64,000 nucleotides of DNA, taken from Spirosoma rhododendri. GTDB lineage: Bacteria > Bacteroidota > Bacteroidia > Cytophagales > Spirosomataceae. Under the pieces are notes generated by a model, which saw nothing but the letters and a program-made list of their open reading frames with translations, was not told the origin of the DNA and did no database searches. The stretch lies in contig NZ_CP051677.1 of assembly GCF_012849055.1 (NCBI RefSeq), positions 1,302,001 to 1,366,000 of the forward strand, in the 5' to 3' direction. The position numbers were made by a program, and so were the translations under genes. Positions 20,663-45,224 of the stretch are shown piece after piece. Every line of letters begins with the position of its first letter. Within the stretch, counting starts at the first letter, position 1.

Positions 20663-21558
20663 CTACCGCAAATTCTCTTTTTTAACAACGGCTGAGCGGC
20701 TGCGGATGGCCGTTGCAGTGAAAAAACCCGTTGCGGTCCGACCAGCCGCGTTGGTGTTGACGATGTTGGTGGGCAGGTTGGCGGGGGCGTGGCAAACAGA
20801 CCGCCGTTGGTAAGCTGCGTGCGCAGTTGGCCCAGAAAATCAAACGCTTCCGCCGTAATCGAGCTTACCTCGACCCGCACCGAATCATTCATACGGTACA
20901 AACTGTCGGGGTTGGCCGACTGGCGGATGGGCTGGATAAATTGAAGTCCGTCGGTGTCGGCGCTGCCCCGGAAGGCGGCATCCTGCACGGTAACGATGTT
21001 GCGGGGTCGGTTCTGCAATACACCATTCCAGAAAAAGCGGACGCGGTAATAGTCGCGGGCACCGGCGATGTCGGTAGCGTAAAAAATGGCCTGATACCCC
21101 ATTTGGCTGGAAATCGGGTTGATACGGGCCTGCCTGAACACCAGTGAGTCGATGGTGGGGACACGGTTAAGGGTTGAACTCGCAACGTACGTATCGCCCT
21201 GATACGCTATTGTCAGCTTGTAGGTATGGCCGATGCGGCCCATCGTGTCGCGGGCTGTGGGTTTCCAGACGTAATAACCGTCGTTGTCGGGGTCGGTGAA
21301 GGCGTAGATCCGGCCGGTGTTATCGGCAACGGTCACGGTAGCCCCTTTGGCGGCTGGGGTGATCGTGCTATCGAGGTAAGCCGCCGTCAGGCTAAGTCGA
21401 ATCGTTTGGGCCCCGACCTGATCGGTGATCGTACCATCAACCGATAGCTGCGTTGGCGACGTATCGAGGTCAGCGTTGATGACTGTCGTACAGGCCGTCG
21501 TCAAACCGGCTAGTACCAGCAGCATCCCCGAAAGGCGCAGAAATTTAGCAGTTGTCAT
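20663..21558 (-). pseudogene. DUF4249 lipoprotein, frameshifted near its C-terminus
   Basis: The protein has a lipoprotein signal (LAGLTTACTT) and the DUF4249 plan: an N-terminal LSVDGTITDQ segment, GATVTVAD, and GHTYKLTIAYQGDTY. These proteins accompany TonB receptors at the cell surface, and the receptor gene lies 7 bp upstream. The normal frame runs to a run of five Gs at 20783-20787 (TPP on the minus strand). After it, the family-like C-terminus (NLPTNIVNTNAAGRT, then VVKKENLR) continues in the next frame to a stop at 20663. One missing base in the run explains it. Without correction the frame ends at 20641, inside the neighbouring inverted repeat. Confidence 0.85.
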
Positions 21559-21565
21559 GCCCGGT

Positions 21566-23979
21566 CTAGAATTTAAAGTTGTAGGTGACAGATGGGATAG
21601 CGGTAGCGAAGACCGAGTACCGGATGGCCTGCGTCACGCGGGGATTGACAATTGGGTCACTCGTGTTACCCGGCTGGAAATACACTGAAAACGGGTTCTT
21701 ACGGGCGTAGACGTTGTACACGGAGAACACCCAGTTGTCGTCTTTGCGCTTGCCGGTTCGTTTGCGGCCCTGCAACGTAGCCGCCAGATCGAGCCGGTGG
21801 TACGGCGGTATGCGGTAGTTGTTGCGCCCGTTGACGGTGTACCCCACATAGCCTTCGTACTCGAACCGGCTGGTCGGGAAAGTAGCCGGGGTACCGCTGG
21901 TAAGGGTGAACGTGGCCGAAAAATTCCAGCGGCTGCGGCCTTCGGTGCGGCCGGGCGGATCGATCAGCAGCACCGACGTCAGCGTGTGGCGTTTGTCGAA
22001 GCGGGTAGCGTACCACTCGCCGTTGTTGATTCCCGCCACCTGCCGTTCGGTCTTCGCCAGCGTATAGCTGATCCAGCCATTGACGACGCCTGTGTTACGC
22101 TTTATGTAAAATTCCGCCCCGTAGGCCCGGCCGCGCCCGCTGAGCAGGTCGGCTTCGAGATACTGGTTCAGAATCAGGTTGGCCCCGTCGATGTAGTCGA
22201 TCTGGTTTTGCAGCCATTTGTAATACACCTCCACCGACGCTTCGAACTCACTACCGCGCGTGCTGCTCTTACCGAAGTTCCGGAAGTAGCCCCCCGCCAC
22301 CTGATCGGCAATCTGGGGTTTCACGTTGTTGGTCGAGGGGGTCCAGACGTCGAGCGGGGTTGAGGCTGTGGTGTTGGAAATCAGGTGGATGTACTGCGCC
22401 AGCCGGTTGTAGCTGAGTTTGAGCGAGCTGTTGGGGTCGAGGTCGAGCTTGGCGGCAAGGCGGGGTTCCCAATTACCATAGGTCTGAATTGGCTTGCCCC
22501 GGTCATAGGTCCGGGTCGAGACGAGTGATTTGCGGGTGCCCAACGCGCCGTCGGTGCTGAACGTATATGCCTCGCCGGGGCCGATGTAGGTGAACAGCGA
22601 ATACCGCAGGCCGTATTGCAGTTGCAGCCGCCGGGTTAGCTGCTGCTCGTTGCCGATGTACAGCGCATTTTCCAGTCCGTAGCGGCTGTCCAGTCCAAAC
22701 CTCCGCTCGACACCCGCACTCGTCGCTGTAGCTACGCCGGGCTGGAAGTCGTGCAGAATACTTTGCCCACCAAACGACAGGGTACTTTTCCCCAGAAACA
22801 GCGAGAAATCAGGCTTGATACTGTAGTCGACAATCCGCGAGTCGGTGCGGAAATTATCCTGCGGATTCTTACCGCTCTGGTCGGAGTTGAGGGCGTACTG
22901 ATAATTGCTGTAATAGGCCGTCGTATTGAGAAACAGTCTGTCACTGAACACGTGGTTCCAGCGGGCCGACAGCGTCGTACTACCCCAGTTGAAACCGAAA
23001 TCAGCCCCGAACACGTCGCGGCCGAGGTAGCCCGACAGGAACACCGTGTTGCGGTCGTTGATGCGGTAGTTGGCCTTTGTCGTCAGGTCGTAGAAGTAAA
23101 ATTTAGCCCCTTTCAAATCGCCCCGCAGGAACGGCTGCGCCAGAATATCGGCATACGACCGCCGGGCCGCGACGATAAACGAACCACGGTTTTTCAGGAA
23201 CGGCCGCTCATACGCCAGCCGACTGAAGATCAGCCCGATACCGCCGTTCAGTTCGCCTTTTTTGGCGTTGCCTTCTTTGAGCCGTACATCAAGAATGGAT
23301 GCGATACGCCCACCGTAGTTGGCCGGAATACCGCCCTTTATCAGCTTGACATCCTTTATCGCGTCGGGGTTAAAGACCGAGAAAAAGCCGAACAGGTGCG
23401 ACGAGTTATAGACCGGTGCTTCGTCGAGCAGCACCAGATTCTGGTCGATGCTGCCCCGCGCACGTTGAAACCCGTTGCGCCCTCCCCTACCGTACTGACA
23501 CCCGGCAACAGTTGAATACTCCGGATCACGTCGACCTCGCCGAGCAGTGCCGGAATGCGTTTGATGGTCTGTACGTCGATTTTATTGACGCTCATTTCCA
23601 CGCTTTTTACGTTGTCGTCGTCGCGCTGCGTCGATACCGTTACCTCCTGAAGCTGCTTGCCTTCCTGCGCCAGTTCCAGATCGAGTTTTACGCTGCGGTC
23701 GGTCAGCGTTACCGTGCGCGTTTGCTTCGCGTAGCCAACATAGCTGATGACGAGATTATACGTACCGGCGGGCATCGTCACGGCATAGAAGCCATAGTTG
23801 TTGGTTACGGCACCGGTACCGGTTTCTTTCACGTAGACCGACACCCCAATCAGCCCTTCGGCGTTGGCCGCATCTTTCACGTACCCGCTGACTGTCAGTT
23901 TGTCCTGCGCAAAAGCTGCACCGGCACCAACCAGCCAGCTGATCAGCAAGAGGTACCCTAGTCGTATTTGTTGATTCAT
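21566..23979 (-). pseudogene. TonB-dependent receptor with CarboxypepD_reg-like domain, frameshifted
   Basis: The gene starts at the ATG at 23979 (signal peptide ending AAFAQ). An N-terminal carboxypeptidase-regulatory-like domain (VSGYVKDAANAEGLIGVSVY) precedes the plug (TIKRIPALLGEVDVIRSIQL, GFNVRG) and the barrel (LLDEAPVYNSSHLFGF, then GGIPANYGGRI, to a C-terminal SVTYNFKF). The frame breaks at four Cs (23454-23457; GGGG on the minus strand). Upstream reads RGAAS where the family has RGGS-D, and the barrel continues in another frame from there. One missing G restores it. With DUF4249, it forms an outer-membrane uptake unit for an unknown ligand. Confidence 0.88.
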
Positions 23980-24018
23980 AATTTGTTGTTCCGGGAGCAG
24001 GAATGGGCTGTTTGACAG

Positions 24019-24026
24019 CAAAGGTA
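24019..24026 (-). promoter_or_regulatory. Candidate -7 element for the TonB receptor operon
   Basis: TACCTTTG on the minus strand matches TAnnTTTG and lies 39 bp upstream of the ATG at 23979. A -33 TTG is not obvious. Confidence 0.4.
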
Positions 24027-24141
24027 CGTCCTGCCGTAGGGCGACTGTTTTAAATTTGTTGAAAGCCCGGTTTGTCGGGTTGAGCGGTAATCGGCATTCG
24101 CCCCAAAACCCGTTTCTTTACAGCGCTAACTTTTATCAATC

Positions 24142-24999
24142 ATGCGCATTCTTCTTTTGATTCTGGTTCTTCTCGGGGGCCGGGTAAGCGGTCAGTCGAT
24201 GCTGTGGGAAGTGTCGGGCAACGACCTCAAACAACCCTCCTATCTGTTCGGCACCTACCATATTCTGAAAGACAGCTACCTCAAACAGGCACCCGCCGTG
24301 CAGCAGGCATTCGATAAGTCGGCGGGGGTAGTGGTCGAGACAACGGTCGACTCGGCGGCTATGCTGAGTATGGCGATGAAAGCGATGATGCCGGGTAAAA
24401 ACCTGAAACAGCTCATCTCCGCGCCCGACTATGACCTGGTGGCGAAGGAGTTCAAAACAACGACGGGTTATGACCTGGCGATGTTCAGCATGATGAAGCC
24501 GATCATGACCGCGACTACGCTCAGCATGGCTTACACGGAGAAAGAGTCAGACACGCTGAGCCACTTCACAGGCCAGCCCATCGACCTGTTTTTCGCCACC
24601 GAAGGCCATCGGAAAGACAAACTGGTAACGCCCCTCGAAACGATGGAACAGCAGATGAATTTTCTGTTCGACCACGACCCTGTCGAAAAGCAGGCAGCGG
24701 ACCTGGTAACGATGGTGAAAGAGAAGGCCGACATGCGAAAAGCCGCCGGTGACCTCACGAAACTTTACCTCAAAGGTGATCTGAACGGTCTGTATAAGCT
24801 CAGCCGGTCATACGAAGACAAATACGGCGACCTGTCGTTTCTGGTCACGGAGCGCAACCAAACCTGGATGAAACGGCTACCGGGCCTGATGGCTTCCCGC
24901 CCAACGTTTATCGCCGTAGGTGCCCTCCACCTCGCCGGCCCGGACGGACTCGTCAGCCTGCTCCAGAAACAAGGGTACAAGCTGAGGGCGGTTAAATGA
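24142..24999 (+). CDS. TraB/GumN family protein
   Basis: The 285-residue exported protein has a signal peptide (cut near VSGQS) and both family signatures: an N-terminal LFGTYHILKD with GTYH at 37-40, and a C-terminal FIAVGALHLAGPDGLVSLLQ with GALHL. The family folds like Tiki/erythromycin-esterase-type metalloproteases and may be a peptidase; no function is established in bacteria. It is divergent from the TonB receptor and converges with ppk2 across the 25000-25079 palindrome. Confidence 0.88.
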   Translation: MRILLLILVLLGGRVSGQSMLWEVSGNDLKQPSYLFGTYHILKDSYLKQAPAVQQAFDKSAGVVVETTVDSAAMLSMAMKAMMPGKNLKQLISAPDYDLVAKEFKTTTGYDLAMFSMMKPIMTATTLSMAYTEKESDTLSHFTGQPIDLFFATEGHRKDKLVTPLETMEQQMNFLFDHDPVEKQAADLVTMVKEKADMRKAAGDLTKLYLKGDLNGLYKLSRSYEDKYGDLSFLVTERNQTWMKRLPGLMASRPTFIAVGALHLAGPDGLVSLLQKQGYKLRAVK

Positions 25000-25079
25000 G
25001 TCTAAGGTTTGTAGTTTAACGTTCAAGGTTTCTGGCACATGCAGAAGCAACTTTAAACATTAAACCATAAACCTTAAAC
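25000..25079. repeat. 31-nt arm inverted repeat, family A
   Basis: Arms 25000-25030 and 25049-25079 match in 25 of 31 positions; every mismatch is a transition. The right arm read in reverse begins GTTTAAGGTTT and is clearly the same element as at 17156-17237. It fills the whole space between the convergent TraB and PPK2 genes, so it may serve as their shared terminator. Confidence 0.85.
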
Positions 25080-25082
25080 CTA

Positions 25083-25958
25083 TCAACTGTCCTGCTTTTT
25101 AATCAGCTTGCGCTGTTCGGTGACGGTTTTTTTGTCGGTTTCGGGGAAGGATGTGGGCAGGGCTTCGAGCAGCTCGGTCAGGATGTTGGCGATGATAAGC
25201 TGCTGGTTCTGCCGGTCGTCGCTGGGGATCACGTACCACGGGTTCTGCTTCGTGGCCGTCGCGTTGATCGTATCTTCGTAAGCCTGCATGTAGTCGCTCC
25301 AGAACTCGCGCTCTTTCAGGTCGCTGGGGCTGAGTTTCCACTGCTTCTCAACATCGTCGAGCCGGGCGAGCAGTCGTTTTCCCTGCTCCTGTTTGTCGAC
25401 ATGCAGGTAGAACTTCACGATGGGAAAGCCGTTCCGAAACAGGTAATCTTCAAAGTGGACGATGTCGCCAAAGCGCTGTTTCCAGAGCGTATCGATATTC
25501 TTAGGCACCAGATTCTCCGGTATCGACTGGTCGTCGAGCCGGTCGGGGTGTACGCGCAGGGCCAGCACCTCCTCGTAATACGACCGGTTGAAGACGCCGA
25601 TGTTGCCCCGCTCCGGCAGTTCCTGCCAGAACCGCCACAGAAAATCGTGTTTCAGGTCGGTGTCTTCGGGTTTCTTGAAAGCCGCCATGCGAAACCGCGA
25701 CGGGTTGACCCCTTTGAAAACCCGCCGGATGCTGCTGTCTTTGCCGGCTGCGTCCATCGCCTGAAACACGACCAGAAACCCGTATTTTTCATCGGCATGC
25801 ATCCGATTCTGGGCCTGATCCATGCGGGCCGCCAGAGCGTCGAGTTGCTGATTCAGATCATCAGCATCTTTATACAGCGGCTCAACACGCGTTGGCGTTT
25901 GCGCTGACTTAAACGGAGTCTTGTTGTCGAAACGGAACGGCTTGCTGGAGAATGCCAT
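25083..25958 (-). CDS. Polyphosphate kinase 2 family protein (copy 1)
   Basis: The 291-residue PPK2-type kinase has Walker A AMDAAGKDSS (67-76), a lid region with FKKPEDTDLKHDFLWRFW, and the Walker B-like GVFNRSYYEEVLALRVHPD. PPK2 enzymes use polyphosphate to phosphorylate nucleoside mono- or diphosphates. It lies 21 bp downstream of a second paralogue (25980-26861), so the two are probably co-transcribed. The copies differ markedly outside the motifs, for example at the position after GKD (SS versus GT), and may prefer different nucleotides. Confidence 0.92.
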   Translation of the reverse strand: MAFSSKPFRFDNKTPFKSAQTPTRVEPLYKDADDLNQQLDALAARMDQAQNRMHADEKYGFLVVFQAMDAAGKDSSIRRVFKGVNPSRFRMAAFKKPEDTDLKHDFLWRFWQELPERGNIGVFNRSYYEEVLALRVHPDRLDDQSIPENLVPKNIDTLWKQRFGDIVHFEDYLFRNGFPIVKFYLHVDKQEQGKRLLARLDDVEKQWKLSPSDLKEREFWSDYMQAYEDTINATATKQNPWYVIPSDDRQNQQLIIANILTELLEALPTSFPETDKKTVTEQRKLIKKQDS

Positions 25959-25979
25959 AATGTGCTGAGCGTACGATGG

Positions 25980-26861
25980 TTATTGACCCTTGATTACAGG
26001 AATCAATTTTTGAAGTTCCTTAAACCGATCTTCACCCGACTCCGGCTCTTCGATCGGCAGTTTCTTTAATTCTTCGATGATAATGCGCCCGACAATCAGC
26101 CGCATATTCTTTTTGTCGTCGGCCGGAATAATGTACCAGGGGGCTTTGTCAGTAGCCGTTTCGTTAATGCATTCTTCGTACGCAGCCTGGTAATCGTCCC
26201 AGAACTCACGCTCTTTCACGTCGCCCTCTTCAAATTTCCAGTTCTTCTCCGGATCTTCAATCCGGGCGATCAGCCGGTCGGCCTGCTCCTGTTTCGATAC
26301 GTTCAGGAAGAACTTAACCGTCGGGAAGCCATTGTGAGAAAGGAATTTCTCCATGTCGCGAATGGCTTCGTACCGATGTTTAAACAGCTTGTCCAGATCG
26401 TCGGTCGCTTTTTCCGGCAAGCGCTGGCTATCCGTGAGTATCTCCGGGTGTACTTTCGTTACAAGCACTTCTTCATAGTACGAGCGATTGAAGATGCCGA
26501 TCTTACCCCGCTCCGGTAGTTCACGCCAGCTACGCCATAGAAAATCGTGGTCTAGTTCCAGATCCGTCGGTCGCTTAAACGAATGCACCGTCACCCCCGT
26601 TGGGTTAGTGCCCGTAAACACGTGCTTGATCGTACCATCTTTTCCGGCCGCGTCGAGCGCCTGAAAAATAACCAGCAGACCATAGCGGTTGTGGGCAAAC
26701 ATCAGGTCCTGATACTTGTCGATCTCGTCGGCCTGATGCCGCAGCATTACCTCGTAATGGCCTTTATCGTCGTAGTAATCGTCAACTTTTGTCGGTACTT
26801 TTTTGAGCTTCAGCTTCTTGTCTCCGTCGTAGCGGAACTGGTCGGTATCTAGGTCTTTCAC
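25980..26861 (-). CDS. Polyphosphate kinase 2 family protein (copy 2)
   Basis: The 293-residue protein has all PPK2 motifs: FQALDAAGKDGTIKHVF (Walker A at about 70-77), FKRPTDLELDHDFLWRSW, and GIFNRSYYEEVLVTKVHPE, with a C-terminal EFWDDYQAAYEECIN and WYIIPADDKKN. It is the first gene of the tandem pair and would provide polyphosphate-dependent nucleotide kinase activity. It is divergent from msrA. No PPK1 or exopolyphosphatase lies in the window. Confidence 0.93.
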   Translation of the reverse strand: MKDLDTDQFRYDGDKKLKLKKVPTKVDDYYDDKGHYEVMLRHQADEIDKYQDLMFAHNRYGLLVIFQALDAAGKDGTIKHVFTGTNPTGVTVHSFKRPTDLELDHDFLWRSWRELPERGKIGIFNRSYYEEVLVTKVHPEILTDSQRLPEKATDDLDKLFKHRYEAIRDMEKFLSHNGFPTVKFFLNVSKQEQADRLIARIEDPEKNWKFEEGDVKEREFWDDYQAAYEECINETATDKAPWYIIPADDKKNMRLIVGRIIIEELKKLPIEEPESGEDRFKELQKLIPVIKGQ

Positions 26862-26992
26862 AGGCAGTGGGTGTAAACTTTACTGAATCAGACACTGTTG
26901 TATCTGTATCAACAACAATGAACAGTAGCAATAGTTATGGACCGGCTCAGCAGCTATTCCTGACCGTCGGGCTGTTCGCTTCTTAGACGTAA

Positions 26993-27550
26993 ATGGACAC
27001 AAACGTAAATACGGAGAAAGCTACTTTTGGCACTGGCTGCTTCTGGTGTACAGAAGCCCAGTTTAACTCACTCGACGGCGTTATTTCGGCTATTTCAGGT
27101 TACGAAGGTGGCCAGAAAGCCGACCCTACCTACAAAGAAGTATGCACGGGTACCACCGGCCACGCCGAATGTGTTGAAGTGACGTATGATCCCAACCGTA
27201 TATCCTACCAGGAATTGTTACAGGCATTCTTCCGGAGCCACGACCCCACCTCGCTCAACCGGCAGGGGGCTGACGTTGGTACGCAGTATCGCTCGGTGAT
27301 TTTCTACCACAACGACGAGCAAAAGCAACTTGCCGAAACGGCCAAGGCTGAACTCGACAAGTCGGGCGCTTACGACAGCAAGATCGTCACGGAAATTAGC
27401 CCGGCCGAACCGTTTTATCCCGCTGAAGACTACCATCAGGATTACTTCCTGAAGAACCCCAACCAGGGCTACTGCGCCTTTGTCGTGGCCCCCAAACTGG
27501 ATAAATTCCGCAAGGTTTTCAAAGAAAAGCTGAAGCCTGTCAACGCGTAA
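26993..27550 (+). CDS. msrA: Peptide methionine-S-sulfoxide reductase A
   Basis: The 185-residue enzyme has the active-site motif GCFWCTE with catalytic C16, then a GYEGG, GHAECVEVTYDP and YHQDYFLKNPNQGYC. It reduces methionine-S-sulfoxide with recycling by the C-terminal Cys; C19 in the FWC form is a common variant. It is monocistronic and ends at a strong palindromic terminator. Confidence 0.97.
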   Translation: MDTNVNTEKATFGTGCFWCTEAQFNSLDGVISAISGYEGGQKADPTYKEVCTGTTGHAECVEVTYDPNRISYQELLQAFFRSHDPTSLNRQGADVGTQYRSVIFYHNDEQKQLAETAKAELDKSGAYDSKIVTEISPAEPFYPAEDYHQDYFLKNPNQGYCAFVVAPKLDKFRKVFKEKLKPVNA

Positions 27551-27565
27551 CACGACTAATTCCTG

Positions 27566-27608
27566 TAAGCAAATGGGGCCACCTGATTCAGGTGGCCCCA
27601 TTTGCTTA
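27566..27608. terminator. 21-bp perfect palindromic terminator after msrA
   Basis: Arms 27566-27586 and 27588-27608 are exact reverse complements around a single base, so the real loop is probably a few bases wider. The core is GGGGCCACCTGA. It starts 15 bp after the msrA stop. Confidence 0.85.
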
Positions 27609-27823
27609 TATAATCCGGCCCGACTCAACAATTAAATTTTATCGGCGTATACAGCGTAATGAATTGTGTCTAATGGCATCTGCTTTGTCCTTTTCTAAGT
27701 TAATCACAAAAGCAGACTTACTCACATACAAAATCTAGTTGTTTTGTATACAAAGAGAAGTTGGTACTTGCTGGTGTACGTACTTTAACCGACCGTTGGC
27801 CTGTCACTCTGCCCAAACTACGC

Positions 27824-28093
27824 ATGAATACAACAGTAACGCCCCGTGACGCTGTGAACTGGCAGACGTTACTACAGATTGCCCGTTTGCTTCCTTCCGG
27901 TAATAAAACGCCCCTTGTTTCATTCACCAACCCCGATGATGCGGCTCAATTCATGCGGCAGCAGGATCCACCGGGCACGAAGCTGTGTCTGCTCACTAAA
28001 GATGCATCGCTCTTCTGGATTGTACCGATCAGCACCGCTGAACAGCTGTTACAGAATGGTTTTCAACAAATATTAAAAACTATCCGCCTGTAA
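27824..28093 (+). CDS. Small hypothetical protein
   Basis: The 89-residue product from the ATG at 27824 begins MNTTVTPRDAVNWQTLLQI and has mixed alpha/beta character, with LVSFTNPDDAAQFMRQQDPPG in the middle and LFWIVPISTAEQLLQNGF near the end. No domain is recognised. It could be a small PilZ- or TRAM-sized cytosolic protein, but nothing supports a function. It converges on the degenerate receiver gene with a 21-bp gap. Confidence 0.5.
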   Translation: MNTTVTPRDAVNWQTLLQIARLLPSGNKTPLVSFTNPDDAAQFMRQQDPPGTKLCLLTKDASLFWIVPISTAEQLLQNGFQQILKTIRL

Positions 28094-28114
28094 ATCAGCA
28101 GACTACTGATGGTT

Positions 28115-28516
28115 TTAGTTTGAGTACGATAGCATCCGGGCGGCATTCACCAGGTTACTGTAGTTTTTTGCTTTCTGGATCAGACCATTGCATCCCAACT
28201 CGAAACATCGCTTGATGACCCGTTCATGCGTCGTATCAACGAGCATCAGTATGGGTATGGAGCGAAATACGCTGTCCTTCTTTAGCACCTGCAACACCTC
28301 ATATCCGTTCATAATCGGCGTGTTGGTCGCCAGCAGGATCAAATCCGGCAACCGCCCGTCCAGACAGTGTGTGAGTCGGATCAGCAGCTCGGCCCCATTT
28401 TCTATATGGCAGAATATCGGAGTATCACGCCGGTCAATCAGGTTGTGCTGTGCGTAATCGGTAACTGAATCGCCCTGATCAACTACGTATATCAGGGGCG
28501 CATTAACGGTAATCAT
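28115..28516 (-). CDS. Degenerate response-regulator receiver domain protein
   Basis: From the ATG at 28516 the product is 133 residues, a single CheY-like fold without an output domain. The N-terminal acidic site reads VVDQGD rather than the usual paired acids, and the phosphoacceptor strand reads DLILLATNTPIMNGYEV, where the family has LLD in place of LLA, so A63 replaces the phosphorylated Asp. The switch lysine is kept (GLIQKAKN, K115). It is probably a pseudo-receiver used as a constitutive protein-interaction module. The open frame extends to 28594, but the upstream part has no receiver character. No histidine kinase is adjacent. Confidence 0.72.
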   Translation of the reverse strand: MITVNAPLIYVVDQGDSVTDYAQHNLIDRRDTPIFCHIENGAELLIRLTHCLDGRLPDLILLATNTPIMNGYEVLQVLKKDSVFRSIPILMLVDTTHERVIKRCFELGCNGLIQKAKNYSNLVNAARMLSYSN

Positions 28517-28819
28517 ACTAAATGAGTAGAGTATCTGTCGTTCATGTTGGTTCAATATCAACAATTGAACCAATTGATAATCGGACTCACCCACCTTGTC
28601 TGCGTAAATGTTTTAATCGGTTACTAACCTGAATTTTTAGCGGATCAGTCGCTTCTCCGCTCATCATATAACGGTATGACTGATATGGATTCGCGTTCGA
28701 CATTGCGTTACTTTCGGCTCAATTGAGCATAACCGATCAATAAGACGCAGCCGGCAAGGCTTGCCTGGTTCTATGCTCCCCGTTTTCTTTGTCCCGTTGT
28801 ACATCATTATCTACTACTC
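28517..28819. other. 303-bp divergent intergenic stretch
   Basis: This region lies between the pseudo-receiver and the outer-membrane protein, which are divergent. The first 78 bp are also an open N-terminal extension of the receiver frame. I see no strong hairpin or TAnnTTTG word in it. Confidence 0.4.
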
Positions 28820-29341
28820 ATGAAAAAACTGCACTATGCTTTTCTGCTGATCGTCCTGTCGCTCGTCAGCACACACTCATTTGGCCAGATGGCCATTGGT
28901 AAAGGAACCAGTTTCATCAATGCCGGTATCGGTGTTGGTGGTTACGGTTATTTTAATGGCAGCGGTGTAGCCCTGACAGCGGGTTACGAAACTGGTGTAT
29001 ACGAGAACATCACCGTTGGCGGTGTTGCCGGTTTTCGTACATACGGTAGCGGTGTCACTTCTTTCGACATTGGCGCACGGGGGTCTTACCACTTCAATGA
29101 GCTGATTAAGCTGACAGATGACAAGCTCGACTTGTATGCGGGTATTGGTGTGTCGTTCTACCGCTTATCCTATGGCGACAGCTATATCCGGTCATTGGGT
29201 ATCTCCGACAGTTACTCAACGGCTTACGTACCCATACACATCGGTGCCCGGTATTTGTTTGCGAATAATCTGGGCGGTTTTGCCGAGATAAGTTCGAGCC
29301 TGGCTACACTGCGTCTAGGGTTAACGTTTAAACTGAAGTAA
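28820..29341 (+). CDS. Small outer-membrane beta-barrel protein
   Basis: The 173-residue protein has a signal peptide (cut after HSFGQ) and glycine-rich strands such as FINAGIGVGGYGYFNGSG and LDLYAGIGVSFYRLSYG, ending in ATLRLGLTFKLK, consistent with an eight-strand outer-membrane barrel. The family is not named here. The ATG is followed by MKKLHY. It is followed by a stable terminator. Confidence 0.72.
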   Translation: MKKLHYAFLLIVLSLVSTHSFGQMAIGKGTSFINAGIGVGGYGYFNGSGVALTAGYETGVYENITVGGVAGFRTYGSGVTSFDIGARGSYHFNELIKLTDDKLDLYAGIGVSFYRLSYGDSYIRSLGISDSYSTAYVPIHIGARYLFANNLGGFAEISSSLATLRLGLTFKLK

Positions 29342-29358
29342 CTCAGCATCATAAACAA

Positions 29359-29396: not shown

Positions 29397-29415
29397 GTTT
29401 TGTATCCCACCAAAC

Positions 29416-31554: not shown

Positions 31555-31615
31555 AAAGTCGAGGAAGTAGGTTGATGGCAAATGGTTGTATGGTCAGTGT
31601 ATTTGGCCTGCCCGC

Positions 31616-32367: not shown

Positions 32368-33872
32368 TCAGCGTGACGCCTGCAACGGACGAGTCCGAAT
32401 CGGCTGCCGGGCTACGACGCCTTCGCGAATCAGCCGGAGGGTATAATCCAGCACGTAGTCGCGGTTTGTCAGGAGGTCATCGTAAGAACGTGTGACGGTG
32501 AAATCCGGTTCAACCGTGAATCCATTGGCCCGATCAGCCGTAACAGCGTGGGTTAGTTTCTTCAGTGGAATGCGCACCTGAATACGGGAGTTGGGCAGCG
32601 TAATGGTTTTGAAATGACCGGCAAAATCACCCCAGTACGCGCTGCCGCTCGCTTCGCCGATGTAGGTACCCATGCCCGCATCGAGCGTTTTGGCCAGCAC
32701 GGTTGTCGTGGCCGAGAACGACGCACCATTCATCATAAAATAGAGGTTGCCGCGAAACGCCAGGTGCTGCCGGGGGCGGTAGCGCCATCGCGCCGACCGG
32801 CTCGCGAAGCCTCCGGCCTGACTCCGTTTGTACTGCCAGCTAAAGTGCAGGGCTGAGATCGGGTTCCAGCGGGTGACGAGTTCTTGCCGGGCGGCCGGGT
32901 TCATTTCTTCCCGCGCCATCATCGTAAACGGCTTCGGCATCCAGTACCGCAGCAGGTTAGCCGAATTCGTGACGACGCCCCCGCCGTTGCCCTGCATATC
33001 CACGATCAGGTTTTGTACGCCCTCGTCGCGCAGTTGCCGAAACGCCCGTTTGAGCCGCCGGTTGAATCCCCACTGAAAGGGGTCTTTTTTGCCCACGTTC
33101 ATAAACGACGATACGCGCAGTACGGCCGTCCGGGTCAGCGAATCGACTACGCGCACCGACAGGTTGGGGCGCCGGTCTATTTCGTTGCGGTAGCGTCGCT
33201 GCATCACCGCCCGAAACCGTTGCAGCGATGCGCAGCGTAGGCTGGTCCGGCGGGTCGTTGTGTCGCCAATGGCGCGGTACGAAATCGTTACCGAATCGGC
33301 CGAGCCATACCAGGCGGCATAGTAATCGGCGAACTGTACCAGACTCCACTGCCGCCGGCCTGTGAGATTATCGCCGTCGGAGCCGGAGCGGTCGGCTTCC
33401 ATCAGTTCGCGGTGCAGTTCGCCCACGGGCCGGTCGTTGATCGTCAGCAGTTCATAGCCCCGGTGCAGGCTCGTATCGGTCGACACGTTGTGGCTGATGT
33501 AATACTGATCACCGACGGGCCGGATAAAAAACGGGATGTAACGGGTTTGCTTCCCGATGTAGTTCCGGCGGTGGGTGATGTTGGTGTGCCCGTCTTTGAT
33601 AGCCGCCACGAGCGGGCTAACGGTATGATAAAACGTCAGGTACGGCATAGGAGCCGTAAGCCGGTTGAATAGCGAGTCATAGAGTTGTTCCATGCGCGGG
33701 CGGGGGTGTAAAAGCCCATGCCCGGATGCAGCAGATCAAGTTTGCGTTTGAGGAAGGCGATATCGGCGCGGGCCTGTCCGGGCGTCAGCGAATCGACAGG
33801 CTGGGCAAAAGCAGGGAAAAAACCGGTAAGGCAAATAAAGAGGAAGGCAAACAAACGCGTCGTCGGATTCAT
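32368..33872 (-). pseudogene. S41-like peptidase, frameshifted after its N-terminus
   Basis: A signal peptide (FFPAFAQ) and a helical N-terminus (LDLLHPGMGFYTP) lie in one frame, and the body (EQLYDSLFNRLTAPMPYLTF, then the S41 core GNGGGVVTNSANL, NGASFSATTTVLAKTLDAGM and GEASGSAYWGDF) lies in another. The shift falls near a run of five Gs at 33702-33706 (CCCCC on the minus strand), and one extra C joins the two parts. The protein resembles tail-specific peptidases without a PDZ domain. If the break is real the product is inactive; if it is a read error, about 500 residues are encoded. Confidence 0.78.
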
Positions 33873-36851: not shown

Positions 36852-36868
36852 CAGCGAGTTCCTTTCCC

Positions 36869-36918
36869 ATAAACGTCGGCGGCACGTACTGAAACCAGTA
36901 CGTGCCGCCGACGTTTAT
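36869..36918. terminator. 22-bp perfect hairpin terminator
   Basis: Arms 36869-36890 and 36897-36918 are exact reverse complements with a 6-nt loop (gaaacc). It lies 18 bp after the T9SS cargo gene. Confidence 0.88.
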
Positions 36919-36997
36919 ACCAGGCAGACTCATCAGAAATCAGTACCGCACCAGCCTGCTGCACCGCCCTCCCCCGCCTTTTTCGTTACTTTGACCC

Positions 36998-37831
36998 ATG
37001 AACTATACCGAAGTACAACTGACGGTTTCGCCCGACTTCGCCGACATCCTGACGGCCGAACTGGCCGAGCTAAATTTTGAATCGTTTGTCGAGACCGATG
37101 AGGGCCTGAACGCCTATGTTCAGGAGGCCGATTTCGACCCCGAAGCCCTGCGCGAACTGGTCGCCAAATACAGCCCGATTACCGCAATAGCCTATCAGAT
37201 CAATTCGTTAGAAAAACGGAACTGGAACGCCGAATGGGAGCGTGATTACGAGCCAATTGAGGTTGCCAACACCGTGCGCGTCCGGGCGTCGTTTCACCAG
37301 CCTGACCCGGCCTTTCGCTACGACCTCGTTATTAATCCGAAGATGTCGTTCGGGACGGGGCACCACGAAACGACGGCGATGATGATGGAGCAGCAACTCG
37401 CGCTCGATTTTACCGGCAAAGCGGTACTCGACGTGGGCAGCGGCACCGGTATTCTGGCCGTGCTGGCCGCCCGCATGGGAGCCGCGTCGGTACTTGCGTT
37501 CGACATCGAAGAGTGGGCCGTGGAAAACGCGCGGGAAAATGCAGACCTCAACGACTGCCCGCAGATCACGGTGTTTCAGGGCACGATTGCTGATGTTGAC
37601 CCGACGACCCGCTACGAGGTGGTGCTGGCCAACATCAACCGCAACGTGCTGCTGGCCGAAATCCCGACCTACACAACCCTGCTGCAACCCGGCGGGGCCT
37701 TGCTGGTCAGCGGCTTTTACCAGCACGACGCGGCCGACATCCGGCAGTGCGCCATCGACGCGGGGCTCATACCCGGCACCGCCCTGACCCTGCGCGACTG
37801 GTCGTCGCTCCTGTTTACCAAACCGGCATAA
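36998..37831 (+). CDS. prmA: Ribosomal protein L11 methyltransferase
   Basis: The 277-residue protein carries an N-terminal alpha/beta domain (MNYTEVQLTVSPDF) and a SAM methyltransferase domain with MSFGTGHHETTAMMM, DVGSGTGILAVLAARMG, and VVLANINRNVLL. It trimethylates L11. The upstream cgttactttgac is near, but not equal, to the -7 consensus. The exported 1613-residue protein gene begins 41 bp after its stop. Confidence 0.95.
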   Translation: MNYTEVQLTVSPDFADILTAELAELNFESFVETDEGLNAYVQEADFDPEALRELVAKYSPITAIAYQINSLEKRNWNAEWERDYEPIEVANTVRVRASFHQPDPAFRYDLVINPKMSFGTGHHETTAMMMEQQLALDFTGKAVLDVGSGTGILAVLAARMGAASVLAFDIEEWAVENARENADLNDCPQITVFQGTIADVDPTTRYEVVLANINRNVLLAEIPTYTTLLQPGGALLVSGFYQHDAADIRQCAIDAGLIPGTALTLRDWSSLLFTKPA

Positions 37832-37872
37832 GTAGCCGGGTTTGCACCAACAACTTGCTTTTGAACTTGCTC

Positions 37873-40800
37873 ATGAAACGCGTTTTATACCTGTTGCTTT
37901 GCCTGTCGTGCCCCCTGTTCAGTATGGGGCAGGCCGTGCGTATTTCCGATAAACCCGATCAGTTTGTGGCCGATGTGCAGAAGCTGATGGCAACGGGTGG
38001 CCCGGTGGCTGCCAGGGCGGGAACGAACTTGCAGGCCCTGTGGTCGGAAAACCGACTGTCGGCGCAGCAGCAGGAGCGCGTTATGGTCCTGAGCCGGAAA
38101 ATGAACCAGAAGCGGCTACCGGCAGCCACGCACTTCGCCCCGGTCTACGACGCGCTGTATTACGACATCACGACGCAGCAGGCCACCCCCGCCGGAGTCG
38201 ATGCGCTGCTGAGTCTGGCCGAAAAACTATTTGAAACGGTCGATTCCAAGACGTTTGCGCAGAGTATGCAAACGGCCCGGCAGTTTCTGGAAAAGCGCGA
38301 GCTCTACGCCGGTCGGTACAACAAGCTCTACGCAACGGGCGGCTCGTTTCAGTTTCGCCTGGTCGACGCGGTACCAACCAGCCCGGCGTCGATGACCGGT
38401 ACGATTACCCCTGCTGACTCGGCCGCTATCGCCAAAGCTGCCGCCGAACGCTCCCGCTTCGACGGGTGGGACGATCCCGCACCGGGTGATTCTGCCATGC
38501 CCCGGCAAATGGGTGTGCAATACGTACCGCAACGTCGGCCCATACCCAGCGTGTCGGGCGCCGTGCTGACACTGACAGGGGTAACGCTGGCCATCGTGGC
38601 TAACGGCGATTCGGCACTGGTCAACAATACGTCGGGCGATCTGATGCTGACCAATGGACAGTTCGTCGGGAAAGGCGGCACCGTAACGTGGGCCACGGCC
38701 GACCGACCCGACATTTCGGTGGCTCTGACCGAGTACGCCATGAATATCGCAAACCCGCGCTTGCAGGCCGATGACGTGACGCTGACCTACGAAGGGGCCA
38801 AGCCGGTCAAGGGCGTGTTTGAATACGTCAGCCGCAAGAAAAACGGACCGGCGCAGTACCCGCGCTTCATGTCGTGGCAAAACGACGCCCGTATACCCAA
38901 CCTCGGTGCCGACGTCGACTACCGGGGTGGGCTAGCATTGGCGGGCGCGCAGTTGGTTGGCTCGTCGGCAAGTGGGCAACCGGCCCTGCTCATCATCAAA
39001 TCGGCGGGGAAGCCGGTGATGAAAGTTAGCAGCCGCCGGTTCGACTTTCGCGATTCGACCATTTCGGCGCAGTCGGCCGCGTTTGTGGGCTACGTCGATA
39101 CCGATTCGATTACGCACCCCGCCACGCAGTTCAAGTTCGACAAGGCACAGCGAATCGCGTGGCTAAACCGCGAGGACAAGACGGGCAATGGCCGGATTCC
39201 TTTCGCCGATTCGTACCACAAATTTTACATTCAGCCTGAGGTGATGCGCTGGGATATGCCGCGCAAAAAAATCGATTTCTACCAGGTTGGTGCCAAGCAG
39301 GAAGTACCGGTCTACCTCGAATCATACGATTATTTTCAGCCGCAACGCTACGCCGACCTGACCGTCGATTACGGCTTTCACCCCCTGCAAATTGCCGCGA
39401 ACTACGTAGCCACGAAGAAAACGCAGCAGTTTACGCCCGAAGACCTGATCGCGTCGGTGAAGGTCAATCCGACGGCCCTGCGCGGGTCGCTGAACCGCAT
39501 GGTACAGGAGGGCTACCTCGACCGCGACGCCAACACGGGTATGCTGCGGCTAAGCCGGAAGGGCGTGCTGTACGTGCTGGCCTACGCGAACAAAAAAGAC
39601 TACGACAACTTTCAGGTGCGGTCGTACTTCCCCTCGAACGACAGCCTGAAAAATGCGACCATTAACCTCGACGACAAGATTCTGACCGTCCGGGGCGTCA
39701 CGCGCTTTACCATTTCCGATTCGCTGAAAGTCGTCGGTACACCGTCGGACAAGACGCTGCGGATTGGCAAAAACCGGGCATTTGCACTGAACGGGCAGGT
39801 TAAGGCGGGAACGCTGCGTTATGCCGGGCGCGACATCAAGTTCGATTACGACAAGTTTTCGATGAACCTGAGCAAAATCGATTCGATCACGTTCTCGTCG
39901 CAGAAAATGGCCGCGCAGGGGAAGACGGGCGAAGTCGGGGGCGACATCAAGTACGAAAACGCGGGGACGGTATTCCTCGCTGCTGCCGATAATAAATCGG
40001 GGCAGATCAAGGGGAAGAAAACCTCGCAGCGCATGGTGATGCCCGAAGGTATGACCGTGTACTTCAATCAGCCGGTGCGGGGCAACCTGGTCTACAATCA
40101 GAAGGTCTATTTCAAGGTGCCGCCGATTGATAAGGACAGTATGGGCTCGGACGATATTTCGTTCGTAGGTACGTTTTACTCCGACGGTATTTTCCCGCCC
40201 TTCAAAGCCGAGCTGAAAACCATGCCCGACAACACGCTGGGCTTCGTTTACAAAGCGCCGGCAGCGGGCTTTCCGGTGTACGGCAGTAAAACAGCCAACG
40301 TAAAGTTTGCCAGCGACATTACGATGGACAAAAACGGCCTGCGCGCCGAGGGGGTACTCAACCACCTGACCGCCAGCCTGAACACGCAGGGTATGCTGTT
40401 CACGGCCGACTCGCTGATCACGTCGGGCGAGAAAGGCACGATTCGGGAAGGGTTGGCCGGGCAGACGTATTTCCCGCAGGTTCAACTCAACAACTACGCG
40501 ATGAAGTGGTGGCCTAAAGCCGACAGCATGGTCATCACCACCCAGAAAAATAACTTCGTCTTCTACAACGCCACGACCAACCTGGAGGGCGGGCTGGTAC
40601 TGCGGTCGAAAGGCTTGTTTGGGCAGGGTACGCTGCGCCGGAAAGACTCGGAAACGGTGTCGAAGAGCATCAAATTCAACAAGGACGGTTTCCTGGCCGA
40701 CAATGCACAGTTTACGGTTCTGTCGGATAAGGAAGGCAATAAGCCGATTCTGGTGGGCAACGACATCGACGTCGATTTCAATCAGGTGAAGGGCGTCGTT

Positions 40801-42714
40801 GGCCTGGCGATTAACAACCGGCAGAACATCACCGATACGCTGAGTTCGAGTCTTGATTTCCCGTTTGCCGCCTACAAAACCAGCATCAACAAGGCGCAGT
40901 GGAACATCAACGCCAAGACGATTGCGATGAAAGGCGACGTAAAGACCTCGACGTTTACGGCAACCGCGGAAGAGCAGGAAAACCTGACGTTCAACGGGTC
41001 GGCCGCGCTGTACGACGTCGACAAGATGATGCTCAACATCAGCGGTGTCCCTTACGTCACCTCGGCCGACGCCCGGATTCAGCCCGACAAAGGACTGGTT
41101 ACAATTCGGCGCAACGGCGAGATGATGCCGTTTAAGAACGCCCGGCTCGAACTCGATACGACGAGCCGATTTCACCACCTGAAAAACGGCAATATCCAGG
41201 TACTGTCGCGCACCCGCTTCTCCGGCGACGCGACCTATCTGTATCCGTTGATGAAAGGCGACACGGCCAGCGTGAAGATGGGTAACTTCGAGTTGCAGGA
41301 AGCCGCTACGCCCGCATCGCCGACACTCACCGCCGACGCCCGCAAGGGTCGGGGCAGCCGCCGGTCAGGTACCGGCGCGCCGACAAAGACGTACACGACC
41401 GTGGCCAAAGCCGAAGTTGACGAGGCCGACAACCTGCAACTGGCACCCCAGATGCTGTACAAGGGCGCGATCCTGATGCAGGCATCGGCTCCCGACCTCG
41501 CGCTGGACGGCTTTATCAAACCCGCCCTGAAAAAACGGGCTGATCTGGTCGGCGGCTGGATTCCGTTCAAAGAAAAAGTCGCCGAACGGCTGGAAATTAA
41601 GGTTGATAAAAACCTGAAAAACGAAGGCGGACAGGAACTGGTAGCCGGTTTCCACTTCCGGGGTGGTGGCGCGGGCCTGTACCCGACCTTCCTGTCGCCG
41701 AAGGAAGACGGCCGCGATGAAGACCTGTTTACAGCAACGGGCATCATGCGCTACGACGAGAAAGACAAGCTCTACCGCATCACATCGGGCGGGGCCGATA
41801 CGGTCGCCGTTGCCGCCGATAGCGCATCCGATGACGTCGAAAACGCGTTTACGTTTAACGACAAACGCGGATTGATTACGTTCAAAGGTCCGATGAACCT
41901 GCTCAATTCAACGCCGAACAAGTACCTGCTGGCGTCAGGCTCGGCCCGGATCAACATCGATAGTAGTCAGTATCGGTTTAACACACTGCTGGCGTTCACC
42001 TTCCCCGTGCCGGAGGGCATCAGTACGTCGATTGCTGCCAAGCTGGTCAGCACGAATCAGGAAGAGCAAAATACCGAAGCCGCCGACGATGATCTGAACC
42101 GGCTCTCCGACAAGCTACTGCCGCTGATTGGCGCGAAAGAAGTGGAAGCCTACCGCACCAAAGCGCAGAATCAGCACGTACCGCTCAACCAAGCATCGCC
42201 CAAACTGCTGACGGCGCTGGTGCTGGCTAACGCCAACCTGCGCTGGTCCGACAAGTTCAACGCCTTCTACAGCACCGGTCAGCTCGGCGTATCGAATATC
42301 ATGGCAACGGATATCAACGCGCAGATGGACGGCTTTGTCGAAATCCGTAAATCGGCCAACGGCGACGAAGCAAGCATTTACCTGGAAGCTTCGCCCGACG
42401 TGTGGGTGTTCTACGATTTCAAGCCCGGCAACGGCCCCGGCTCGATGAGTCAGCTGGCAATCATTTCGTCGGTGCAGGAGATCAACGACCGCCTATTGGC
42501 GGGATCGAAAAACAGCGGCAAATCGGCCATTGAGGTTGTTCCAGCCACCGTCGATGAGAAAACGCTGTTCGTCGATCGTTACCTCGATCAGTACAAGACA
42601 AAAGTCAAACCTGCTCCGAAGCCAAAACCCAAGCCGGGCGAGAAGGTGACGAAAGAGATCGCCAAAGAGAAGGAGAAAAAGAAAGATAAGGAGGCCGAGA
42701 AGGAAGGGTTTTGA
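37873..42714 (+). CDS. Giant exported protein of unknown function (1613 aa)
   Basis: The open frame begins at 37747, but the ATG at 37873 gives a standard signal peptide (MKRVLYLLLCLSCPLFSMGQ). The mature protein has a helical N-terminal part (about 20-160), then a very long region of repeated beta strands with a recurrent pattern of hydrophobic-D/N turns (for example TLRIGKNRAFALNGQVKAGT, FDYDKFSMNLSKIDSI). It includes a winged-helix-like stretch near 530-570 (SLNRMVQEGYLDRDANTGML) and ends in a Lys/Pro/Glu-rich low-complexity tail. No named domain is recognised. The strand pattern could form a beta-helix or jelly-roll stack such as those in lipid- or polysaccharide-handling envelope proteins; that is inference. 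It lies 41 bp after prmA. Confidence 0.75.
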   Translation: MKRVLYLLLCLSCPLFSMGQAVRISDKPDQFVADVQKLMATGGPVAARAGTNLQALWSENRLSAQQQERVMVLSRKMNQKRLPAATHFAPVYDALYYDITTQQATPAGVDALLSLAEKLFETVDSKTFAQSMQTARQFLEKRELYAGRYNKLYATGGSFQFRLVDAVPTSPASMTGTITPADSAAIAKAAAERSRFDGWDDPAPGDSAMPRQMGVQYVPQRRPIPSVSGAVLTLTGVTLAIVANGDSALVNNTSGDLMLTNGQFVGKGGTVTWATADRPDISVALTEYAMNIANPRLQADDVTLTYEGAKPVKGVFEYVSRKKNGPAQYPRFMSWQNDARIPNLGADVDYRGGLALAGAQLVGSSASGQPALLIIKSAGKPVMKVSSRRFDFRDSTISAQSAAFVGYVDTDSITHPATQFKFDKAQRIAWLNREDKTGNGRIPFADSYHKFYIQPEVMRWDMPRKKIDFYQVGAKQEVPVYLESYDYFQPQRYADLTVDYGFHPLQIAANYVATKKTQQFTPEDLIASVKVNPTALRGSLNRMVQEGYLDRDANTGMLRLSRKGVLYVLAYANKKDYDNFQVRSYFPSNDSLKNATINLDDKILTVRGVTRFTISDSLKVVGTPSDKTLRIGKNRAFALNGQVKAGTLRYAGRDIKFDYDKFSMNLSKIDSITFSSQKMAAQGKTGEVGGDIKYENAGTVFLAAADNKSGQIKGKKTSQRMVMPEGMTVYFNQPVRGNLVYNQKVYFKVPPIDKDSMGSDDISFVGTFYSDGIFPPFKAELKTMPDNTLGFVYKAPAAGFPVYGSKTANVKFASDITMDKNGLRAEGVLNHLTASLNTQGMLFTADSLITSGEKGTIREGLAGQTYFPQVQLNNYAMKWWPKADSMVITTQKNNFVFYNATTNLEGGLVLRSKGLFGQGTLRRKDSETVSKSIKFNKDGFLADNAQFTVLSDKEGNKPILVGNDIDVDFNQVKGVVGLAINNRQNITDTLSSSLDFPFAAYKTSINKAQWNINAKTIAMKGDVKTSTFTATAEEQENLTFNGSAALYDVDKMMLNISGVPYVTSADARIQPDKGLVTIRRNGEMMPFKNARLELDTTSRFHHLKNGNIQVLSRTRFSGDATYLYPLMKGDTASVKMGNFELQEAATPASPTLTADARKGRGSRRSGTGAPTKTYTTVAKAEVDEADNLQLAPQMLYKGAILMQASAPDLALDGFIKPALKKRADLVGGWIPFKEKVAERLEIKVDKNLKNEGGQELVAGFHFRGGGAGLYPTFLSPKEDGRDEDLFTATGIMRYDEKDKLYRITSGGADTVAVAADSASDDVENAFTFNDKRGLITFKGPMNLLNSTPNKYLLASGSARINIDSSQYRFNTLLAFTFPVPEGISTSIAAKLVSTNQEEQNTEAADDDLNRLSDKLLPLIGAKEVEAYRTKAQNQHVPLNQASPKLLTALVLANANLRWSDKFNAFYSTGQLGVSNIMATDINAQMDGFVEIRKSANGDEASIYLEASPDVWVFYDFKPGNGPGSMSQLAIISSVQEINDRLLAGSKNSGKSAIEVVPATVDEKTLFVDRYLDQYKTKVKPAPKPKPKPGEKVTKEIAKEKEKKKDKEAEKEGF

Positions 42715-43032
42715 CCGCTGATTTTTTTCTTGAACTGTGATTCTTGTGATTACGCTGATGGACTGTGATTTTTTCTTGAACTATGATTCTTGTGATTGCA
42801 CTGATAGACTGTGATTTCTTTGTTGAATCTGGGCAATCATATAATCACAAGAATCACAGTTCAGGAAAATGGATTACGATTCAAGAGAAAAAGAAATCAC
42901 AGTCTATCAAAGCAATCAGGCGAATCACAGTTCAAGATTGTCTGAACTATGATTGACGCTGATTGCTTTGATTTCGCTGATTGAGAAGAAATCATAGCCC
43001 ATCAGCGTAGTCACAAAAATCACAGTTCAGGG
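42715..43032. repeat. Composite intergenic repeat of TGATT words
   Basis: The 318-bp convergent spacer is made of short related words (GTGATT, CTGATT and their complements). Direct repeats: 42719-42751 and 42767-42797. Perfect inverted pairs: 42731-42751 with 42843-42863 (21 bp) and 42802-42817 with 42894-42909 (16 bp). A further set of complementary words lies at 42950-43030. No gene is seen. The stop of the giant protein gene lies at its left edge. Confidence 0.85.
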
Positions 43033-43947
43033 CTACAACCCAAACGCAGATAGCTTCACAAATTCATCCACGCGAGATTTGATCTCCTCGTCGGTGAGGT
43101 TCATGATGCGCTCGGCACCGAACTTCTCGACGCAGAATGACGCCATCGCCGAGCCGTAGATGATCGCCCGCTTCATGTTGTCGAACGAGATGTCATCGGT
43201 TTTGGCAAGGTGTCCGATGAAGCCACCGGCAAACGTGTCGCCCGCGCCCGTGGGGTCGAAGACTTCGGCGAGGGGCAGGGCGGGTGCGAAGAAGACCTGA
43301 TCGTTCTGGAACAGCAGCGCGCCGTGCTCACCCTTCTTGATAATCACCGTCTGCGGACCCATCTCTTTGATCTTCGCAGCGGCTTTCACCAGCGACGGCT
43401 GCCGAGTTAACTGCCGCGCTTCTTCATCGTTCACAACGAGCACGTCGACCAGCTTGAGCAGGTTCATCAGGTCCGCGTTGGCGATGTCGATCCAGAGGTT
43501 CATCGTGTCGAGGACGATCAGCTTGGGCCGGTTGGTAAGCCGCTCGATCACTTTCTGCTGAATGGCCGGGGCCGTGTTGCCCAGCATCAGGTACTGGCAA
43601 TCCTGATAAGCGTCGGGGATGATGGGGTCGAAATGCTCCATCACGTTGAGTTGCACCTCCACCGTGTCACGGGTGTTCATGTCGTCGTGGTACTTGCCCG
43701 ACCAGAAGAACGTTTTCTCGCCCTGCCGAATCTCCAGCCCTTCGGTGTTGATGCCGTGCTGATTCAGGTCGTTGATCATGCTCTGCGGGAAATCGTCGCC
43801 CACAACAGCCACCAGATTATTGTCTTTGGTGAAGTACGACGCCGACAGCGTGATGTAAGTAGCCGCGCCCCCGATGATCTTGTCGGTTTTGCCAAAAGGT
43901 GTTTCGAGGGCGTCGAATGCAACTGACCCAACGGTAAGTAGACTCAT
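43033..43947 (-). CDS. PfkB family carbohydrate/nucleoside kinase
   Basis: The 304-residue protein has the ribokinase/PfkB fold with an N-terminal GSVAFDALETPFGKTDKIIGG, central VLDTMNLWI and VLVVNDEEARQL, and the C-terminal PfkB signature DPTGAGDTFAGGFIGHLAKT with the catalytic Asp. It phosphorylates a sugar or nucleoside (ribokinase or adenosine-kinase-like); the substrate is not clear. A palindrome separates it from the next gene on the same strand. Confidence 0.9.
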   Translation of the reverse strand: MSLLTVGSVAFDALETPFGKTDKIIGGAATYITLSASYFTKDNNLVAVVGDDFPQSMINDLNQHGINTEGLEIRQGEKTFFWSGKYHDDMNTRDTVEVQLNVMEHFDPIIPDAYQDCQYLMLGNTAPAIQQKVIERLTNRPKLIVLDTMNLWIDIANADLMNLLKLVDVLVVNDEEARQLTRQPSLVKAAAKIKEMGPQTVIIKKGEHGALLFQNDQVFFAPALPLAEVFDPTGAGDTFAGGFIGHLAKTDDISFDNMKRAIIYGSAMASFCVEKFGAERIMNLTDEEIKSRVDEFVKLSAFGL

Positions 43948-43955
43948 AGTTGTTA

Positions 43956-44017
43956 GTTTGTGGTTTGTAGTTCGTGGTTTTCTGGCGGCAGCTAACTACG
44001 AACTACAAACCACAAAC
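43956..44017. repeat. 20-nt perfect inverted repeat between PfkB and GNAT genes
   Basis: Arms 43956-43975 and 43998-44017 are exact reverse complements (core GTTTGTGGTTTGTAGTTCGT). The right side carries one extra copy of the CCACAAAC word. It lies between the GNAT stop and the PfkB start on the minus strand. Confidence 0.87.
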
Positions 44018-44028
44018 CACAAACTGAT

Positions 44029-45224
44029 TTACTTCTTTCGCCCGATTACCGGGCAACGTTTGAATGGTTTAGTTCGGTCGAACAGGTATCGGTACGTAAC
44101 GTGCGTCTTGACAATTGTCGACCCAAGCTGACTCACAAAACGAACCATAATCGGGTTGAAATCGCCCACCCAGTTCATTTCGAGTTGAGTGTACTGGAAG
44201 TCGGGGTTGTTGTCGGCTTCGTGCGGCATCCGCAGCGCAATGGCCGCTTCCAGCCCTTTACCCTGATGGGACGGGGCCACGCCAAACACGACGCCAAACG
44301 CCTTCCGGTTCGTCTTGCGAATCGTATGCCACAGAAATTTCAGCTTCCCGATCAAATCGAGTTTGCCGTTGACGTGCTTGAAGATCTGATTCAGTTCGGG
44401 CAGACAAACAAAAAACGCGACGGGTTCGCCCTGATAGTAAGCGAAGTAAATGATCTTCTCATCGAGCACCGGCTTCAGCTTCTGCATCAGCAACTGCGCC
44501 TGTTCGGCGGTCATCTCGTGCACACCGGCGTGGGCACCCCATGCCGCGTTGTAGATGTGCCGGAACTGTTCGGCGGCAGCGGGCAGGTCGCGCTTGTCGA
44601 GCGTACGGAAATCGTAATCGGGGTTGTCGTAAATGCGCTTGGCCCGGTCTTTCACCGCCTGCGACATCTCCGTCAGCCGCGCCCAGGTCGTCGGAATACC
44701 GAAGGTGAACTGCTTGAAGTAATCCTGAAAGCCGTAGTTCTCGAAAAACTGAATATAATACGGTTTGGTGTAGGGCATACAATAGTTCGGCTCCCGGTCG
44801 AACCCGTCGATCAGCAGGCCCCACCAGCGGTCGCGGTCGCCGAAATTGATCGGGCCGTCCATCGCTTCCATACCCTTCGTCTGCAACCACGCTTTCGCCG
44901 TGTCGAACAGGGTAAAAGCTGCTTTCTCATCGTCGATGCACTCGAAAAAGCCAACGCCACCCGTCGGCTGCTCGTTGTCGAGATTGGCGATGTCGTAATC
45001 GACGAACGCGGCAATGCGGCCGATAGTCTCGCTTTTGTCGTTCAGCAGTAGGTAACGGATGCAGTCGCCGTGCTCGAATCGCTTGTTGCGGGTCGGGTCG
45101 AATACCTCGTCTACGTCGGTATCGAGGGGCGAATCCAGTACGGGTCAGTACGGTAGAGCCGAACGGGCAATTGGATAAATTCGTTTTGATACCGGGCATT
45201 GGTGCCCACCTCAACAACCTGCAT
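44029..45224 (-). pseudogene. GNAT-like acetyltransferase, frameshifted near its N-terminus
   Basis: The long frame from an internal ATG at 44886 (MQTKGMEAMDGPINFGDRDR onwards) is truncated compared with family members of roughly 380-400 residues. Upstream, a MQVVEVGTNARYQNEFIQLP start at 45224 continues into RTDPYWIRP and then hits a stop. Adding one base in a run of four Gs (45126-45129) joins it to a good continuation (DTDVDEVFDPTRNKRFEHGD and FVDYDIANLDNEQPTGGVGF). The C-terminal GNAT part has GVAPSHQGKGLEAAIAL as the acyl-CoA site. Target unknown. Confidence 0.85.

Follow-up and report, generated by a model that had tools for sequence, protein, structure and literature searches.

Four frame-broken genes at short G/C runs in a Spirosoma rhododendri assembly most likely reflect consensus errors

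Four genes in a 64,000-nucleotide stretch of the Spirosoma rhododendri assembly (C1:1302001-1366000, here called the window) change reading frame at short runs of G or C, raising the question whether the organism has lost the genes or the assembly has lost the bases. The four breaks are very probably consensus errors, in which some short G/C runs were counted one base too short, and the organism most likely has four working genes. The assembly comprises 6,049,537 bases with a completeness of 99.86%, and the best-matching named relatives are species of its own genus, Spirosoma. Its 6.05 Mb are contained in only three contigs, which suggests that it was assembled mainly from long reads.

All four frame-broken genes lie on the minus strand. 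In window coordinates, and with the calls of the hidden Markov model (HMM) described below, the genes and their runs are:

20663-21558, minus strand: DUF4249 gene, following the TonB receptor gene; frame broken at 20783-20787
20783-20787: GGGGG run in the DUF4249 gene, one base shorter than in relatives; HMM deletion at 20789
21566-23979, minus strand: TonB-dependent receptor gene, start inferred from a relative; frame broken at 23454-23457
23454-23457: CCCC run in the TonB receptor gene (read as G on the coding strand), one base shorter than in relatives; HMM deletion at 23454
32368-33872, minus strand: S41-like peptidase gene, start inferred from a relative; frame broken at 33702-33706
33702-33706: GGGGG run in the S41-like gene, one base shorter than in relatives; HMM deletion at 33698, at the looser cost only
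44029-45224, minus strand: GNAT-like gene, with a weak family label and its start taken from the initial annotation; frame broken at 45126-45129
45126-45129: GGGG run in the GNAT-like gene, one base shorter than in relatives; no HMM call at either cost

To locate the breaks, genes of G045, the nearest relative with long contigs (~80% DNA identity) and our main control genome, were mapped one by one to the present assembly with tblastn, and same-strand pieces in different frames were counted as a break. Each of the four genes is matched in two frames, and the pieces meet at 20770-20785 (DUF4249), 23449-23482 (TonB receptor), 33702-33723 (S41-like) and 45126-45129 (GNAT-like). The runs are thus present where the initial annotation had placed them, and each gene switches frame at its named run, as had been proposed. 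Pfam profiles agree with three of the four gene labels. In the first piece of the DUF4249 gene, profile PF14054 is matched over 2-237 of its 269 positions, compared with 2-268 in the intact G045 protein; PF13715 is found in the first piece of the TonB receptor and PF07715 in the second, and Peptidase_S41 (PF03572) matches the second piece of the S41-like gene. The GNAT label is weaker than was stated: the 371-amino-acid (aa) piece matched no family at E 1e-3 in NCBIfam or Pfam, and the intact relative has GNAT matches only below the Pfam cut-off (PF00583, E 0.013). A separate S41-like remnant at C2:996-2137 on the minus strand consists of two pieces, one with two internal stops, and may be a true pseudogene.

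The same genes are intact in other Spirosoma genomes. With the long piece of each broken gene as the query, the S41-like gene is a single open frame of 499-518 aa in all 35 genomes, the GNAT-like gene one of 400-484 aa in 32 of the 33 with a match (two of the 35 genomes, both fragmentary, gave none), and the TonB receptor one of at least 806 aa in 23 of 24. The exception is G016 in both cases, itself a break-ridden assembly. At the base level the counts refer to loci and not to independent species, because some loci are one genome taken from two collections. A net gain of one base was found in 31 of 32 relative loci for the TonB run, the remaining one aligning poorly, and in 29 of 29 for the GNAT run. 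With wider flanks, an extra base lies at or beside the DUF4249 run in 28 of 29 loci, the 29th (L188) being a stretch without the gene, and at or beside the S41 run in 29 of 29. Shorter flanks gave 27 loci with net +1, one with net 0 and one poor alignment for DUF4249, and 22 with net +1 and seven with net +2 for S41; in the three closest S41 relatives a second gap at the edge of the flank vanishes when the flanks are widened. Each run is therefore equivalent to one missing G or C, as initially claimed, and the comparison with orthologues that had been proposed as a check finds relatives without the breaks.

As the frames of the relatives are open, inheritance of the breaks by common descent is rejected. 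One or more of the four could instead be real, recent frameshift mutations specific to this strain. Such young mutations would likewise be absent from relatives, and all four genes appear to be of dispensable kinds. The parts behind the breaks, however, are still 82-95% identical to G045.

Of 98 mapped G045 genes, all within a 420-kb stretch round the window (further stretches of both genomes added none), six change frame in the present assembly: the four, and two outside the window, one clear and one weaker. The clear case, at C1:1382461 (window coordinate 80461; L195:2213-3765), is an arginine-decarboxylase-like gene whose frame breaks at a GGGG run, and it belongs with the four in one class. 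The weaker one, near C1:1290660 and ~11.3 kb to the left of the window, is an unsure call in which the first piece of a 406-aa G045 gene is 53% identical. In the reverse direction only one of 104 open reading frames (ORFs) of the present assembly changes frame in G045, namely the wrong-frame ORF over the GNAT break; unfiltered, one more case appears, a 107-aa ORF at 58% identity.

To extend the count beyond these genes, we used a three-periodic Markov model, trained per genome set (G042 and G016 share one), with a Viterbi path on which every frame change carries a cost. It was run at a strict and a looser cost; the counts below are strict unless stated otherwise. Calls resembling gene overlaps were excluded before counting (44 in the present assembly, 23 in G045, 2 in G042, 0 in G008, 1 in G015 and 1 in G016). 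The detector is symmetric: of breaks simulated in G045 at G/C runs of at least 5, 161/200 deletions and 161/200 insertions were called in the right direction, and one insertion was miscalled as a deletion. The sample of the present assembly comprised the 420 kb round the window and 37 stretches of at most 20 kb each, together 1,159,319 bases or 19% of the genome. It contains 54 deletion-type and 18 insertion-type switches, an excess of deletions beyond the background in G045, with 6 deletions and 10 insertions in 712,925 bases. The corresponding deletions and insertions are 0 and 2 in 200,000 bases of G042, 4 and 3 in 140,000 of G008, 0 and 0 in 160,000 of G015, and 7 and 0 in 40,000 of G016. 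At the looser cost they become 79/37 in the present assembly, 23/25 in G045, 1/5 in G042, 8/5 in G008, 4/2 in G015 and 7/1 in G016. Within the window the strict cost detects the DUF4249 and TonB receptor sites and the looser one adds S41, while the GNAT site, where the first piece of the gene is short, is missed at both.

The deletions carry a distinct signature. A G/C run of at least 4 is the longest run within ~14 bases of 37 of the 54 deletions, compared with ~15% of random positions in the same assembly, 0 of 6 deletions in G045, 4 of the 18 insertions here and 3 of 10 insertions in G045. That all 37 run-type deletions fall in the present assembly and none in G045 has a probability of 2e-8 under equal rates. 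An A/T run of at least 4 is never the longest nearby run (0/54) and is found somewhere near in 4/54, while the sequence called coding in the sample holds 459 A/T runs of at least 6 and only 220 such G/C runs. The minimum share of runs that lost a base rises from 1.1% through 8.2% to 14% at presumed lengths of 5, 6 and 7 (13, 18 and 4 events). The 37 hit genes lie on both strands (20 minus, 17 plus) and on two of the three contigs; C3 has no deletion in 19 kb. With the runs turned to read G, a C precedes 24 of the 37 affected runs, compared with 53% of all such runs, and follows 27 of the 37, compared with 49%, a mild tendency. At gene ends, false calls probably account for some of the 17 deletions without a nearby G/C run of at least 4 and for some of the 18 insertions.

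Four breaks in 64 kb, in one direction and at one kind of run, fit this class, which speaks against true pseudogenes. The real background looks low, with none of the six G045 deletions in 0.71 Mb at a G/C run of at least 4, although two of the four G008 deletions, in 140 kb, lie near such runs, which blurs the contrast. Taken together, we consider it improbable that any of the four is a genuine mutation. The four window sites would rather belong to the error class, to which they are assigned because they share its features and because the main control genome shows little background of this kind; the assignment is made from these common sequence features and not from proof at each single site.

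Whether the class as a whole is error can be judged from the genes that it hits. Outside the window, 35 genes have run-type breaks; an NCBIfam scan with one piece of each gave a family for 24, including partial profile matches to ketol-acid reductoisomerase, TrmD and prolyl-tRNA synthetase. The assembly contains no proS other than two adjoining pieces that differ in frame and cover profile positions 4-197 and 192-475 of 475, both below the family cut-off; of 20 further Spirosoma genomes drawn, 19 exceed it and the exception is G016. The only copy of trmD is likewise split into two pieces, which lie in different frames and cover 1-139 and 137-227 of the 233 profile positions, while all 20 other genomes drawn are over the cut-off, G016 having a partial match. 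Genes are thus hit irrespective of function, including sole essential ones. Prolyl-tRNA synthetase is indispensable to any cell, and with its sole gene split, this class of deletion must at least largely be error that is absent from the organism. The unbroken relatives, the recurrence of the signature throughout the assembly and the split proS and trmD all speak for the view, first put forward from the window alone, that the breaks are deletion errors of base-calling or assembly.

A broken proS and trmD could stay in the DNA if the sequence were correct and the frame were restored at the G/C runs by slippage of the ribosome or polymerase, so that the proteins are made; the breaks do sit at runs. 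Runs of 4-5 are, however, very short for slippage. In the sequence called coding, four-base G/C runs number 4668 and five-base ones 1139, nearly all in unbroken frames that slippage of such strength would corrupt, and the relatives need no slippage at these genes. We regard slippage as highly unlikely at the four genes, and hold equally little of its genome-wide form, a tolerance in which at least ~200 genic G/C runs of 4-7 bases, that of proS included, would truly be one base short and be read correctly.

The many changes in run length across the entire sample might also point to a mutator strain, deficient in mismatch repair and accumulating genuine run-length mutations throughout its genome. 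The full-length open frames of mutS (C1:3270901, profile 2-838 of 840) and mutL (1-554 of 555) speak against this. In a mutator, gains of bases and changes at A/T runs would be expected as well, whereas here insertions stay at the background rate and no such effect on A/T runs is seen; nor could a mutator tolerate a broken sole proS. Such a strain is therefore extremely improbable. Besides the full-length mutS, a further MutS-family protein is encoded at the right end of the window (62483-63175, minus strand), where a 602-aa open frame matches the MutS1 profile over 522-751 with 106 bits.

Phase variation by slipped-strand mispairing has in common with the breaks that frames change at mononucleotide runs, and genes of surface type, such as DUF4249 and the TonB receptor, are among those affected. 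It differs in that the runs here have only 4-5 bases, not the long unstable run that such switching needs, and in that sole housekeeping copies, proS and trmD, are equally hit. For these two reasons phase variation was rejected, with a probability we consider negligible; the initial annotation had already judged the runs too short for it.

Under the preferred explanation, the consensus has dropped single bases at short G/C runs, and the loss seen here is one-sided, G/C-bound, dependent on run length and spread over the assembly. The cause is probably homopolymer under-calling in long single-molecule reads that received too little polishing; a literature search on Spirosoma sequencing found no platform for the present strain. 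Several observations weigh against this explanation. Seventeen of the 54 deletions lie away from any G/C run of at least 4, and two of the four window sites are missed by the HMM at the strict cost. The choice of proS and trmD is biased, as they were looked up after being found broken; four class I synthetase loci chosen free of this bias each form a single open frame, as is compatible with the low rate. The Nanopore-only S. foliorum, which we take to be G042 and which was polished with Medaka according to the portion of the source available (PMC10482864), has 0 deletions in 200 kb, and the fault is therefore not common to all long-read Spirosoma assemblies. Finally, in a MinION assembly A/T deletion errors outnumber G/C ones, as far as the accessible part of that report goes (PMC12007338), unlike the G/C-only losses found here; platform or polishing may therefore differ.

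If the 37 breaks at runs, found in 19% of the genome, are extrapolated at ~80% detection, the whole assembly may contain ~240 of them, a number that the completeness of 99.86% does not reveal. Counts of pseudogenes, lost genes or missing pathways taken from this assembly are inflated, and the 'pseudogenes' described here should be regarded as an ordinary artefact and not as biology. One simple test for such error that needs no reads is whether an essential gene, present in a sole copy, is split at a short G/C run. In the same window, a 542-aa ORF on the minus strand (39550-41178) lies antisense within a 1655-aa ORF on the plus strand (37747-42714) and is probably a shadow of coding sequence with high G+C content.

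Comparable breaks are found both in the genus and in published assemblies. G016, which we take to be Spirosoma telluris HMF3257 (L200-L201) and whose assembly is of poor base accuracy, shares with the present one split TonB receptor, GNAT-like and proS genes and the bias towards deletions. It differs in its higher rate and in its run types, as four of its seven deletions have a G/C run and two an A/T run of at least 4 nearby. In the sections available of the respective reports, long-read-only bacterial assemblies usually retain homopolymer-length errors (Polypolish, PMC8812927), and most indels of one MinION assembly are false deletions, which are associated with homopolymers of 2-8 and are commonest after 4-5 equal bases (Kastor, PMC12007338). 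Apart from the excess of A/T losses in the latter, the likeness extends, within what these reports describe, to a predominance of deletions at homopolymers, most often in runs of 4-5, and to many frameshifted 'pseudogenes' in a near-complete assembly.

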